In this document: positions 5,485-9,295 of the stretch, piece by piece
How the letters are laid out: each line of letters starts with the position of its first letter
Numbering within the stretch: position 1 is the first letter of the stretch
Source of the DNA: Cyanobium sp. NIES-981
GTDB taxonomy: Bacteria; Cyanobacteriota; Cyanobacteriia; PCC-6307; Cyanobiaceae
Direction: 5' to 3'
DNA: 64,000 nt
Assembly (NCBI GenBank): GCA_945896675.1
Contig: CAMDEM010000010.1
Span: forward strand, 1-64,000
Position numbers and translations under genes: made by a program
Notes under the pieces: generated by a model
What the model was told of the DNA's origin: nothing
Databases searched by the model: none
The model's input: only the letters and a program-made list of their open reading frames with translations

Positions 5485-5518
5485 CAAGCCACCGCATCAA
5501 CTGGGTTGCCTGGCCCTT

Positions 5519-5698
5519 GTGCTTTTCGGGGCAACGCTCAGTAGTTGGCGTTGGCGCTATTGGCGCCAGCTCTCGATGCTCCAGGGCGCAGCCATCGGTG
5601 GCTCTGCAGGAACCCTGATTGGCTATGCCATCGGCAAGGCGCGACGCCCAGGAGTGCGTGGCTCTAAACAGCCATGCCCGAAGCCGGAAGATCTTTAA
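5519..5698 (+). CDS. Possible small membrane protein downstream of the thioredoxin-like gene
   Basis: A short frame just after the thioredoxin-like gene encodes a hydrophobic stretch (LFGATLSSW), then a Gly-rich membrane-like segment (AAIGGSAGTLIGYAIGKARR) and a basic tail. I recognise no family. The start is uncertain: GTG at 5519 gives 59 residues, and ATG at 5576 gives about 40. There is no clear ribosome-binding site, so the coding status is doubtful. Confidence 0.35.
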   Translation: MLFGATLSSWRWRYWRQLSMLQGAAIGGSAGTLIGYAIGKARRPGVRGSKQPCPKPEDL

Positions 5699-5788
5699 TC
5701 CGCGGGCAAGAGCTATTCAGGATTTCCCTGGCCTCCTCTAATTTTTCAGATTCGAAGCTGGCCAGCTACTGGTTAGAACCGCGATCCC

Positions 5789-6028
5789 TCAATAATTCTT
5801 GGCATCACTGAGGGTTCGGCTGGTGGCTAGCCACTGATGTTCGATCCTGGTGACACAAAGCCTCCGCTCCGCGTGCTCTGCCAACCGCTCGGATAGGTAT
5901 TGGAGCCCCAGCGGTGAGATCTCATTGGACAGGCGCCCCGCAAGGGCCTCCAGCGATGCGTGTTCATGGGGAATTCGCATCGGGGCAGTGGCGCTTTCCC
6001 GCACTCTGATGGGATCAAGCAGGTCCAT
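5789..6028 (-). CDS. Small hypothetical protein (79 aa)
   Basis: The 79-residue frame runs from ATG 6028 to TGA 5789. It has a plausible amphipathic helical core (LEALAGRLSNEISPLG followed by LQYLSERLAEHAERRL) and mixed codon use unlike a simple antisense shadow. No catalytic motif, membrane segment or known family is apparent, and no strong ribosome-binding site precedes the ATG. It lies at the left edge of the gene-poor islet that runs to 7.6 kb, so an orphan or recently acquired gene is possible. Confidence 0.5.
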   Translation of the reverse strand: MDLLDPIRVRESATAPMRIPHEHASLEALAGRLSNEISPLGLQYLSERLAEHAERRLCVTRIEHQWLATSRTLSDAKNY

Positions 6029-6058
6029 GGCGCAATGCAGCGGATCTAAGGCACGCGC

Positions 6059-6295
6059 CTAGCGCCCAAGGGTCAGGCGGTTGATGCGGTTGAGGCGGCT
6101 GTTCTGGGTCCCTTGGTTTGCGTCCTGCCCAGCCTGACGTTTCGACCCAGACTGGGTTGACCTGGCCGGCCCTCCTGTGGTGCGCGTGGGCTGGATGCCA
6201 TGCACCCGGACCGCATGCACATGCAGCGCCACCACACTTCCCACCAGGGCCACCAGGGCCAAAGCGATGCGACGGTTGCCGGAAGATGCGCCCAT
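6059..6295 (-). CDS. Small single-span membrane protein with basic tail (hypothetical)
   Basis: From the ATG at 6295 this frame gives 78 residues: a short charged start, one hydrophobic segment (ALALVALVGSVVALHVHAV) and a long hydrophilic tail rich in Arg, Gln, Thr and Asn. No family is recognised. The same architecture, one N-terminal membrane segment plus a basic tail, recurs in the plus-strand frame at 7332-7520. The frame remains open further upstream to 6394, but that extension reads like non-coding sequence, so I took the ATG in front of the hydrophobic segment. Confidence 0.4.
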   Translation of the reverse strand: MGASSGNRRIALALVALVGSVVALHVHAVRVHGIQPTRTTGGPARSTQSGSKRQAGQDANQGTQNSRLNRINRLTLGR

Positions 6296-7062
6296 CACCC
6301 CATCATCAGGCCTAACGCTCCTGGGGCGGGCACGGCTGAACTGGATTGCCCACAACTGGCCCTGGGCTGGGATCGGAGACCTTCCCACGCCCAAAGGACA
6401 TCCATCTCAACGACAACAGATCTAAATCGACAGATCGTCTACGTATCGGCACGAGCTTCACCCACGTTCCTGAACTCCCCCAGCCTGGAGCCGCCCAGAA
6501 GGAGTGGTCCAGGGGCCCGCACAAACGCTGCAGCCCTCAGCTCGCTGAGGTCCTATCTCCCATCAAAAAATCACGCTTTCCAATCGGAACACCGTTGCTG
6601 CGGAGAATCGCGTAGGCGACCGTGACATGGAGGCCCCCTCCAAAACATGGTGCTGCTGATGCGCTGAATCAGGCCGTCGCTAGCGGCGAGGCCGCCATGG
6701 TGGAACTACCTCCCAGCCCCGCCCTCGTTGGTGGACTTGGCGGTTCCCGACCAGATGCCTCACGGCACGGCGGGTAGGGCAGGCACCTCACCTGCCCTCA
6801 CTCTTGCTTCCAAATGCAGTTACCGCGCCCGTAGCTGATCTGCAGCATCTGCGCCCACGATCAGCGACAAGCACAATTAGCGCTCAAAAAACTACAAAAC
6901 AAGCTGGAGACTCAGATATCCCCAATTGACCTAACCCCATGTGCATGGATTTAGGCGCTGCAATGCAGCAGCATGCATCCAAATCCCAGGCCCTGCAGTT
7001 TTTTCAGGCATTGCGCATAAACGCATATGTGGGACACTATCGCTACAGATCTGAGCAATTCC
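6296..7062. other. Gene-poor stretch, no supported gene
   Basis: About 770 bases hold no frame that I can support on either strand; the open frames present lack any protein-like composition. Base composition is visibly less GC-rich than the flanking genes, particularly around 6840-7060, where A-rich runs occur. A perfect 7-bp hairpin (GGGCAGG/CCTGCCC, 7-base loop) lies at 6777-6797 but is not followed by a T-tract. The stretch ends just before the interrupted ribbon-helix-helix-like frame. Confidence 0.6.
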
Positions 7063-7275
7063 ATGCCAGTTGAACGCCTCAATGTTGCCCCAGGCAAGGC
7101 AGTCCTAACTGCTGTGAACTACAGCACGCGAAAACCCCAGCGGGTCACCATCACCGTGCCCTAGCGGGTCTACGCAGCGTTGTTGCAAGAAAGCGATTAC
7201 CAAGGACGGTCCCTTTCGAATTTGGCCAGCGTCTGGCTCGAGCAACAAACCCTCAAGACTGGGCAAGCGATTTAA
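7063..7275 (+). pseudogene. Ribbon-helix-helix (CopG/Arc-like) protein interrupted by an in-frame TAG
   Basis: Starting at ATG 7063 the frame reads 33 codons, meets TAG at 7162-7164, and continues in the same frame for 36 more codons to TAA at 7273-7275. Around the stop the reading is RVTITVP-stop-RVYAALLQESDYQGR, then SLSNLASVWLEQQ. This is the layout of a ribbon-helix-helix DNA-binding domain: a basic beta strand, helix A, a turn and helix B. The stop falls at the strand-helix junction, so neither half alone would fold. The rest of the frame is intact, so the lesion is a single base change from a sense codon (CAG, GAG, AAG or TGG, for example). Such proteins are often antitoxins or small repressors; no toxin partner was found next to it. 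Confidence 0.65.
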
Positions 7276-7297
7276 ATTCAATATCGCTTGGACAGCT

Positions 7298-7318
7298 GAT
7301 CCCATGCCGTCTGGGATC
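7298..7318. other. Perfect 7-bp hairpin
   Basis: GATCCCA and TGGGATC form a perfect stem around a 7-base loop between the interrupted RHH frame and the next small frame. No T-tract follows on either strand, so it is not a classical terminator. It may act on the RNA of either neighbour. Confidence 0.4.
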
Positions 7319-7331
7319 CCTTCATCACGCC

Positions 7332-7520
7332 ATGGCTCCCTACGCAAACGCCCTGGCCATCTCCCTACTGGCACTCGCGCTGATCGTTCTGGGCCTAAAG
7401 GACCAACGGTCTGAGAACCAGCCACCACGAGCAACCACCAGCACTCGGGCAGCACCAACCCAGAGCAAACCTCGACGGCCTGTGGTGACGCAAAACCGGC
7501 GGGAATTCAGCAAGTTCTAG
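7332..7520 (+). CDS. Small single-span membrane protein with basic tail (hypothetical)
   Basis: This 62-residue frame has one hydrophobic segment near the N-terminus (ALAISLLALALIVLGL) followed by a hydrophilic tail rich in Pro, Arg, Thr and Gln ending in RREFSKF. No family is recognised. It lies about 56 bases after the interrupted RHH frame and shares its architecture, though not its sequence, with the minus-strand frame at 6059-6295. No obvious ribosome-binding site precedes the ATG. Confidence 0.4.
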   Translation: MAPYANALAISLLALALIVLGLKDQRSENQPPRATTSTRAAPTQSKPRRPVVTQNRREFSKF

Positions 7521-7615
7521 GCGCCAAGGTGGAGGGCGCTTGGGGCTTTGGGTTTCGGGTTTAGGGGTTGGATTGTTTGACTTAAGGTTTCGGTCTTGAC
7601 TCGGAACTTCCTCCC

Positions 7616-8899
7616 GTGACCCCCGGCTGGCGTTGGCTCTTGAACGGTGTTGCCACCTGCGGCCTGGTGTTCACCGGAGCCTGGGCCCATGCAACGCCGG
7701 TCCAGGTGATTTTGATTCGCCATGGCGACAAGGATTCGCAGCGGGGCGATTACAACCTCTCCCCGAAGGGATTTGAGCGGGCGCTGCGTCTGGGGCGCAT
7801 GATTCCAGCCTGCTTCGGCGCACCCAACCAGATCCGCACTTTTGAACTGGATTCCGTTTCCGGCAAAAACTCCCGTAGCTACCAAACAGCCGTTCCCTTA
7901 GCGGTGGCCACCGGAGTGAACATCGGCATCGTGATGGACTCAATAACAAGTTCCGAGCGTTTTGGCGAGGAGGTTCTTGACTCCAAAACCTTTGACGGCG
8001 CCAAGGCGGTGTTCTTCTGGGAACACCGCCATCTGCCTGACCTCGCCAAGGGCCTGGGATTGGGGGCCATGGCTCCGATCGATGCCGACGACTTCGACCT
8101 ACTGGTGTTGCTGTCGTACCCGGCTGGCTCGAAAACACCAAAGGTCGAACGCCTCAGCCAGCAGGAGCTCTTTAAACGTGCCTGCTCTGGGCTGGCATCA
8201 TCAGTTCTCCCTGCAGCACCAGCGGCCCTGGATCCGCCGGCAGCCAACGCAGGCCTGCAGCTCGAGATGGCATCACTCAACAAAGCGGTGGGCCTACCAC
8301 CAAAGCCCCACACCACGGCAGCCGAGCTAGATCTGGCCATCCTGGTGTGGCTGCAAAAGCATCGAACGCCCGATCAGATTGCCAAAAGCTGGTTGCTGCT
8401 GGATCGCAACATCGTGCAATTTGATCGTGCCTTAGGCATTGACATGACCAAGAGCACGCCAGCTGTGGTGCGGGGAATAACCAGCTTCCTGACGTTGGTG
8501 GATGGGGCAAAAGACAGCATCAAAGATCGGGTGCGACGCCCGCGTCCGTACGTGAACCATCCACAGATTCAGGTGTGCTTGCCGCCAGAATCGGGTTGGT
8601 CATTTCCCTCTGGCCACTCGGCATTCTTTCGCTCGGCGGCCGTTCTACTCGCTGATTTAGTGCCTGAGCGGCGCGAACGCCTACTGGCAGTAGGCCTCCT
8701 TGGCGGTACGAGCCGAACCGTCTGTGGTCTCCATTACCCCAGCGATGTGGAGGCCGGCCAACGACTGGGCGAAGCCGCCGCTCTGCAAATCCTCAACAGC
8801 CCCCAGTGGCAGCAGTTCAAGCAGAACCCTGCTGTCCAACAGCAGATCGAAAAAATCCGCCAAGTGCCCGTATCTCGGCTACCCCAGAACGACGGATGA
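7616..8899 (+). CDS. Secreted dual phosphatase: histidine phosphatase domain fused to PAP2/class A acid phosphatase domain
   Basis: The 427-residue product starts with a signal peptide (about residues 1-26). It continues with a histidine-phosphatase-type domain: the RHG motif is at residues 35-37 in LIRHGDKD, and a second histidine is near 137 in FFWEHRH. From about residue 240 a separate PAP2 domain follows, with all three family motifs complete: KX6RP at residues 303-311, PSGH at 331-334, and SRX5HX3D at 366-377. The first family uses a phosphohistidine on a Rossmann-like fold; the second is an all-helical vanadate-peroxidase-like fold. Two unrelated phosphomonoesterase modules in one exported chain suggest scavenging of organic phosphate or stepwise dephosphorylation (inference). 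The start is GTG 7616 and the signal peptide begins immediately. No ribosome-binding site or Pho box was identified with confidence. Confidence 0.88.
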   Translation: MTPGWRWLLNGVATCGLVFTGAWAHATPVQVILIRHGDKDSQRGDYNLSPKGFERALRLGRMIPACFGAPNQIRTFELDSVSGKNSRSYQTAVPLAVATGVNIGIVMDSITSSERFGEEVLDSKTFDGAKAVFFWEHRHLPDLAKGLGLGAMAPIDADDFDLLVLLSYPAGSKTPKVERLSQQELFKRACSGLASSVLPAAPAALDPPAANAGLQLEMASLNKAVGLPPKPHTTAAELDLAILVWLQKHRTPDQIAKSWLLLDRNIVQFDRALGIDMTKSTPAVVRGITSFLTLVDGAKDSIKDRVRRPRPYVNHPQIQVCLPPESGWSFPSGHSAFFRSAAVLLADLVPERRERLLAVGLLGGTSRTVCGLHYPSDVEAGQRLGEAAALQILNSPQWQQFKQNPAVQQQIEKIRQVPVSRLPQNDG

Positions 8900-8936: not shown

Positions 8937-8957
8937 AAAAAGGGCCCTTCCAGGCCC
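8937..8957 (-). terminator. Intrinsic terminator of the tmRNA gene
   Basis: Read on the minus strand, GGGCC-TGGAAG-GGCCC forms a hairpin followed directly by five T residues, a typical Rho-independent terminator. It ends the permuted ssrA transcript about 40 bases before the convergent phosphatase gene. Confidence 0.75.
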
Positions 8958-9243
8958 CATGGGTCATTTGGGTGATAAGGCTGACCTCACCCCATCTCCC
9001 TAACTAGGGTCAGGCAGCCACAGGGGCGGTCTGACGGGAGAAACGAACGATGTTGTTCGCTGTTACGTGTTTGCTCTTACCGAGCAGGCTTCAGTCACCC
9101 TCCTTATACCCCGTCGAAACCATTGCAGCCCCAGGATCTCGAGCCAACCGCAGGCCAGCGGGAGTGGGGGAATGGAGCTGAGCGGAATCGAACCGCTGTC
9201 CGAAGCACTGGTGTGAGCCACCTAGTCCGGCCGAAACCGGACC
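8958..9243 (-). ncRNA. ssrA: Transfer-messenger RNA, circularly permuted two-piece form
   Basis: On the minus strand the 3' acceptor part comes first, about 9243 down to 9173. It has a GTCCGG/CCGGAC hairpin, a T-arm AGCGG-TTCGATT-CCGCT, then CAGCTCC plus a discriminator A; CCA is not encoded. After about 40 bases of intervening sequence (9172-9133) comes the 5' part, which starts GGGGCTG at 9132 and continues CAATGGTTTCGACGGG. GGGGCTG pairs with CAGCTCC over seven base pairs with one G-U pair, rebuilding the acceptor stem from two separate pieces. The tag frame lies at 9060-9010. This reversed order is the two-piece tmRNA arrangement known in alpha-cyanobacteria. Exact processed ends cannot be set from sequence. 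Confidence 0.93.
9010..9060 (-). other. tmRNA proteolysis-tag reading frame
   Basis: Seventeen codons starting at the resume codon GCG (9060-9058) encode ANNIVRFSRQTAPVAA followed by TGA at 9012-9010. The C-terminal APVAA is the usual cyanobacterial degradation signal recognised by ClpXP-type proteases. The upstream context (CACGTAACA) fits the tmRNA resume site. Confidence 0.93.
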
Positions 9244-9295
9244 TTGCCATTGTGGCAGCACTTGAGCGCTTCACGATGGACCAGGGGCAGGGGGC

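Follow-up and report, generated by a model that had tools for sequence, protein, structure and literature searches.

The histidine phosphatases and the class A acid phosphatases of the PAP2 superfamily are two phosphatase families that both react via a phospho-histidine, and the latter bear the signature KX6RP, PSGH, and SRX5HX3D. In the present study we analyzed a protein encoded in a stretch of 64,000 nucleotides from Cyanobium sp. NIES-981 (contig CAMDEM010000010.1; hereafter, the window), in which members of both families appear to be joined. The described proteins closest to its second half are the class A non-specific acid phosphatases (PhoN/PhoC; PDB 1d2t, 2akc, and 7f17), with which it has the signature residues and, probably, the exported layout in common; the matching PDB chains that bear the name acid phosphatase or PhoN have 217 to 261 aa, whereas the window domain trails an unrelated phosphatase-like domain. 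The first half shares its R-H, second Arg, and W-E-H positions with small exported histidine phosphatases of the Paraburkholderia type, but those are single proteins of about 200 aa and the window half sits in a fused chain. Counterparts of the whole occur in the order of the host, where unfused pairs of a histidine-phosphatase-like (HP) protein and a PAP2 protein (loci L012, L017, L054, L055, and others) belong to the same families, with about 45-57% identity to the window halves, and have exported-type N termini like that of the window protein, but are encoded by two genes.

Enzymes of both kinds have also been recovered from soil. According to one report (PMC6355987), the exported PAP2 enzyme Pho18 is active on phytate and has a higher kcat/Km for pyrophosphate; one positive clone of the same screen encoded three histidine phosphatases, each with a signal peptide. 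Both kinds are likened here to the window protein by description. The best matches of the soil proteins Pho08A-C were named histidine phosphatase family protein and came from Paraburkholderia, so that their likeness to the window HP half runs via the name of the hit (PMC6355987).

Layout of the fused gene

The initial annotation had located, at positions 7616-8899 of the forward strand, a gene for a secreted protein with two unrelated phosphatase folds, and a single uninterrupted frame does lie there, with a GTG start, 427 codons, and a stop at 8897-8899. Its features are as follows.

7616..8899, + strand: whole fused gene, HP-like plus class A acid phosphatase (PAP2), 427 aa, stop included
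7616..7693, + strand: signal peptide, residues 1-26, recognized by eye, with probable cleavage after A24-H25-A26
7700..8185, + strand: HP-like domain, residues ~29-190, from motif, alignment, and profile
7718-7723, + strand: R35-H36 of the HP-like domain
7874-7876, + strand: R87 of the HP-like domain
8024-8026, + strand: H137 of the HP-like domain
8186..8251, + strand: Pro/Ala-rich linker, residues ~191-212
8252..8845, + strand: class A acid phosphatase (PAP2) domain, residues ~213-410, from Pfam, PDB matches, and alignment
8522-8524, + strand: K303 of the PAP2 domain
8543-8548, + strand: R310-P311 of the PAP2 domain
8606-8617, + strand: PSGH of the PAP2 domain
8714-8716, + strand: R367 of the PAP2 domain
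8732-8734, + strand: H373 of the PAP2 domain
8744-8746, + strand: D377 of the PAP2 domain

The fused protein is probably exported, as judged from the signal peptide seen by eye and from hydropathy in its relatives, and its annotation as a chain of exported appearance that joins two phosphatase-type domains without mutual relation is borne out by motifs, alignments, and the Pfam match of the PAP2 half. Unfused relatives have a stop codon where the linker lies, in most cases along with a second signal peptide. A chance open frame is ruled out by the third-position bias of the substitutions that separate the window from the related locus L035 (49 of 80 between 7701 and 8301 of the window) together with the low dN/dS values given below, and, because the genomes G182, G294, and G381 carry the same fusion, an assembly or frameshift artefact is ruled out as well.

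On sequence criteria, the second domain falls among the class A acid phosphatases of the PAP2 superfamily. The Pfam family PF01569 matches residues 293-398 with an E value of 3.6e-16 and 59.5 bits against a cut-off of 27.2, and the top PDB matches of this half are 7f17 (5.6e-18) and 1d2t (1.2e-13), both named acid phosphatase, with chains of phosphatidylglycerophosphatase B and LpxE among the weaker matches. The three motifs that the initial annotation had read in this domain are complete (K303-x6-R310-P311, P331-S-G-H334, and S366-R367-x5-H373-x3-D377). Among the 48 aligned PAP2 rows, all of which come from the order of the window and one of which, L034, repeats G294 (same contig), K303, R310, P311, P331, S332, H334, R367, H373, and D377 are kept in every row and G333 in 46, the exception being S366, the Ser of SR, which is kept in only 14.

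The first half carries R35-H36-G37, R87, and, within W135-E136-H137, H137. Conservation was counted over 43 HP rows, which include L034, the repeat of G294, and which, like the PAP2 rows, leave out matches that contained internal stops or fell short of 95% of the length limit that had been set. R35 and H36 are each kept in 42 of these rows, R87 in all 43, and H137, the second catalytic His, which the initial annotation had placed near 137, in 41. The R-H is absent from a single row, L088, which is clipped by its contig end, and G37 is kept in 36 rows, with Ala in at least five. In two loci of genus code g5, L077 (4682-5191) and L078 (9805-10314), H137 is missing and WHY stands where the window has WEH. 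The sole acidic residue of the HP half that is kept in at least 90% of the rows is E136 (40 of 43). The annotation of both active sites as intact therefore stands for the main catalytic residues of the two halves and falls short at the proton-donating acid of the first, to which no residue could be assigned.

His_Phos_1 (PF00300) scores 15.0 bits with the whole protein (E 0.019) and 17.2 with the domain alone, under the cut-off of 21.7, and because this score stays below the threshold the first half was assigned by motif, alignment, and profile. Nineteen of 41 HP rows match PF00300 at an E value of 0.1 or below, the best at 7.5e-5, and an hhalign comparison of the alignment of 41 HP rows (A2) with 12 PF00300 rows (A4) gave a probability of 73.4 and an E value of 3e-5, for a match that spans 71 columns of the N-terminal part only and in a comparison with PF00300 rows alone. 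In a whole-protein plasmid search, residues 11-189 matched WP_180736413.1, a Paraburkholderia "histidine phosphatase family protein" that is itself without a Pfam match at E 0.1, with 33.7% identity and an E value of 2e-6. The initial annotation had pointed to structure prediction as a check on the two folds, but the quality of the AlphaFold2 models, built from alignments of 3 sequences, did not suffice to confirm the first fold (pLDDT 45, whole chain; 67, first domain). A Foldseek search with the latter model returned neither a match at an E value of up to 0.001 nor, among the 50 matches listed, a histidine phosphatase. Taken as they stand, the sequence comparisons make a good case that the first half belongs to the histidine phosphatase superfamily (branch 1 like), as an assignment below the curated threshold.

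It could be argued that the PAP2 half is the sole enzyme and that the HP-like half serves as a binding or stabilizing domain, since the latter lies under the Pfam cut-off, its proton donor could not be assigned, and L077 and L078 lack the second histidine in place. We consider this quite unlikely, however, because R35, H36, R87, and H137 are kept in 41-43 of 43 rows, because seven genomes have an HP gene without such a PAP2, and because dN/dS of the HP half is low.

Distribution and origin of the fusion

Of the 399 genomes searched in the order, 88 had a match to the window protein, and in four a single match covered its full length: the genome of the window, which belongs to genus code g1, and three of genus code g26, namely G182, G294, and G381. 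Counting the co-occurrence of the two domains had been suggested with the initial annotation, and the tally, run within the order, shows the fusion to be uncommon there (4/399 genomes). Long PAP2 frames were checked singly for fusion at three further loci, none of which was accepted: L065 and L070 have no HP-like sequence ahead of PAP2, and in L046 a decayed in-frame HP-like stretch without RHG or WEH precedes a PAP2 with PSSH for PSGH.

In samples of the phylum, 10 of 373 genomes had a match to the HP profile, all within the window's own family, and the query P0001 matched 39 of 386, with matches outside that family confined to the PAP2 half (best E 3.2e-14). Among plasmids, 239 records had a match and none covered 80% of the query in one place; among viral contigs, seven stretches fit a pattern and no relative was among them. 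Two of 25 stretches from named genome contigs are relatives. One of them, CAMAVE010000018.1 of the MAG Synechococcus sp. UW140, is identical with the G294 contig. In the other, L035, the HP part shows 82% identity, the DNA aligns collinearly to the window with 84-90% identity, and the contig ends inside the gene. The statement that no well-described enzyme has this pair of domains agrees with the literature searches, which took in few subscription papers and protein databases and in which none of the papers listed described the HP-PAP2 pair.

The four fused rows form one clade in the PAP2 tree (support 100/97) and, together with L035, another in the HP tree (99/98); the duplicate L034, retained in the conservation counts, was omitted from both trees. 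Several independent fusions are not supported, given that the fused PAP2 rows form a single clade. The HP tree needs two state changes because L035, whose contig stops 15 bases past the HP match and so could show no fusion, falls within the fused clade. The simplest reading of the trees would be that the fusion arose once. Both halves are under purifying selection: dN/dS was 0.15-0.26 for HP and 0.09-0.14 for PAP2 among the g26 rows, 0.15 for HP between the window and L035, and 0.08 and 0.12 between the window and G294, the last two being near synonymous saturation, so that the nine comparisons range from 0.08 to 0.26. What the window holds is, then, a rare fusion of two familiar enzyme families for which no description was found and whose unfused counterpart is conserved.

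Separate gene pairs and their neighborhoods

Scored by hand over the order, 41 genomes have an HP gene, 49 a PAP2 gene of this kind, and 34 both, in lists from which distant, weaker matches were left out, as were two PAP2 genes, a broken one in G028 and a partial one in G066. Among the 34, the two are fused in four, adjacent on the same strand in 18, within about 5 kb in five, and apart in seven; because six of these last seven pairs lie on different contigs of draft assemblies, linkage may be hidden in them. The adjacent pairs show both orders, HP then PAP2 in 13 and PAP2 then HP in five, and three of the 18 are imperfect (an insertion in HP of G045, a stop in PAP2 of G374, and a start at the contig end in G274). 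PAP2 is absent from seven HP genomes and HP from 15 PAP2 genomes, and the two are therefore not mutually required everywhere. Fisher's exact p value computed from the hand-compiled lists, 1.2e-30, disregards relatedness and is not counted as evidence. The pairing in one chain thus holds for the window and three g26 genomes; elsewhere in the order the two are separate, mostly neighboring genes, which the initial annotation, made from the window alone, could not show. A crude hydropathy rule assigns a hydrophobic N-terminal segment to 33 of the 37 HP rows scored and to 42 of the 45 PAP2 rows scored, and, with start codons assigned mechanically, L012 and L017 have 4 bases common to the HP and PAP2 frames. 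Judged by these N termini, the fusion probably unites two exported proteins, minus the inner signal peptide.

Several loci of the order are decayed or rearranged. In G045 (L082, 5700-7259) the HP gene is split by about 1 kb with a transposase-like frame, recognized by eye, which we take to be IS481-like. G052 has, besides an intact pair, a second, fragmentary HP-PAP2 copy adjoining an MFS gene (L080, 3277-4059), and the PAP2 gene of G028 is broken by stops (L072, 4556-5181). In G126 (L046, 1934-3319 and 8069-8551) a decayed HP-like stretch and PAP2 form one frame and an intact HP, which adjoins a second ruvC-like match, lies about 5 kb off; the arrangement looks like a duplication with reciprocal loss.

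The genes that flank the pair include some of phosphate metabolism. A divergent ppk1 lies beside HP in all seven genomes of genus code g9 with a linked pair, as shown by a tblastn search whose query, the G357 protein, contains PF02503 and PF13089 and comes from the one of the seven that was Pfam-scanned; NDH2-like, MFS, and glycogen phosphorylase genes come next in five of the seven. Downstream of the fusion, all three g26 genomes have a gene of the PstS family (TIGR02136; 251, 243.5, and 244 bits, cut-off 206.6), and G274 has near its pair a pstS match that is clipped by the contig end and scores 192.2 bits against the same cut-off of 206.6. An MFS gene adjoins the pair in g9 and G032, PAP2 in G046, and the decayed copy in G052. 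The closest solved relative of the MFS protein of G166, the sole one tested, is the phosphate transporter 7sp5 (2.5e-38), and two scanned MFS proteins fall under the cut-offs of all NCBIfam models listed, the best being an aromatic-acid symporter subfamily. Because genomes of one genus inherit their neighborhood by descent, the phosphate contexts count as two, perhaps three, independent ones (g9, g26, and perhaps G274). Other pairs lie among what appear to be housekeeping genes, some of which, from the look of their sequences, are presumably chlI, ruvC, and dus.

In the window itself, no phosphate gene was present among the eight flanking frames scanned, those with a family being ALAD, DnaJ, an RNA methyltransferase, a holin-like protein, DUF883, and a glycine-zipper that matched weakly. 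A permuted cyanobacterial tmRNA gene (8942-9258, - strand; RF01851, 305.2 bits) follows closely downstream of the fusion on the opposite strand. About 2 kb upstream (5500-7600) has no recognized gene; it is largely alignable to L035, with gaps, at about 84-86% identity and lacks the consistent third-position bias seen in the flanking genes, except in the block 7101-7301 (13/3/5), and is possibly non-coding or decayed. A Pho-box search, made with a consensus, stayed at chance level, with three of 90 upstream stretches at a p value of 0.05 or less.

These neighborhoods also bear on whether the pair might serve envelope maintenance, through turnover of lipid or sugar phosphates, rather than nutrient scavenging. 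Lipid phosphatases do occur among PAP2 enzymes, with phosphatidylglycerophosphatase B and LpxE chains among the weaker matches, no Pho-box signal was found upstream, and some loci adjoin the chlI-, ruvC-, and dus-like genes. Nevertheless, the top matches are soluble class A acid phosphatases and the pair is flanked by phosphate genes in two neighborhoods, perhaps three, and an envelope role seems to us improbable.

A possible role in phosphate scavenging

The rarity of the fusion, along with the adjacency of the separate genes in relatives, suggests from sequence that the two phosphatases work together, perhaps in gathering phosphate; it is because they are rarely fused and in many relatives lie side by side in either order that HP and PAP2 can be regarded as partners. 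Our preferred reading, which we hold to be moderately likely, is that the window protein is an exported two-site phosphomonoesterase that originated by fusion of neighboring genes for secreted phosphatases and scavenges extracytoplasmic phosphate. A small gene of the histidine phosphatase superfamily and a class A acid phosphatase gene would have been ancestral neighbors that fused into one, and the chain, once exported, would act beyond the plasma membrane, where both of its sites would free orthophosphate from condensed or organic phosphates. Each site would follow its own mechanism, with a phospho-histidine that would form on H36 in the HP-like half and, if class A enzymes are a guide, on H373 in the PAP2 half, and the released phosphate would be imported by the usual transporters. 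The two sites might take different substrates or successive phosphates of one substrate, which is a guess. General phosphate scavenging is favored because ppk1, pstS, or a phosphate-transporter-like MFS gene adjoins some unfused pairs, and such neighborhoods point to no phytate or lipid substrate in particular.

A more specific possibility, already raised with the initial annotation, is that the two sites act in series on one multi-phosphate substrate, such as a pyrophosphate ester, an inositol polyphosphate, or a polyphosphate end, and that the fusion channels the intermediate. The repeated linkage in both gene orders together with the fusion, the ppk1 gene beside the pair in 7/7 g9 genomes with a linked pair, and the action of the soil PAP2 enzyme on phytate and, with higher kcat/Km, on pyrophosphate (PMC6355987) speak for this proposal. 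The same linkage is, however, equally compatible with action in parallel, some genomes carry either half alone, and the seven g9 genomes amount to one inherited neighborhood; we therefore regard serial action as unlikely.

Returning to general scavenging by two cooperating sites, the wider proposal that they belong to a picocyanobacterial system for extracytoplasmic phosphate not described before, in which HP and a class A acid phosphatase act on successive phosphates, coupled to storage by ppk1 and uptake by PstS or MFS, with the window protein as its one-chain form, is in our view doubtful. Several observations weigh against the preferred scavenging reading: the Pho-box search at chance level, the eight flanking frames of the window without a phosphate gene, the genomes in which HP or PAP2 occurs alone, the poor structure models, and the NCBIfam scores of the two MFS proteins. 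In addition, one study states that nearly every freshwater picocyanobacterial genome in its set has PhoX, so that such cells may own another phosphatase; the terms "histidine phosphatase" and "PAP2" are absent from the main text of the study (PMC9361551).

The fusion constitutes a clear Rosetta-stone case for two phosphatase families, the first of which is represented by a histidine-phosphatase-like set that lies mostly under the Pfam threshold or is unscored. If the preferred reading is true, one protein with two separately mutable sites would offer a test of cooperation between unrelated phosphatase mechanisms, and picocyanobacteria would possess an additional module for phosphate acquisition.
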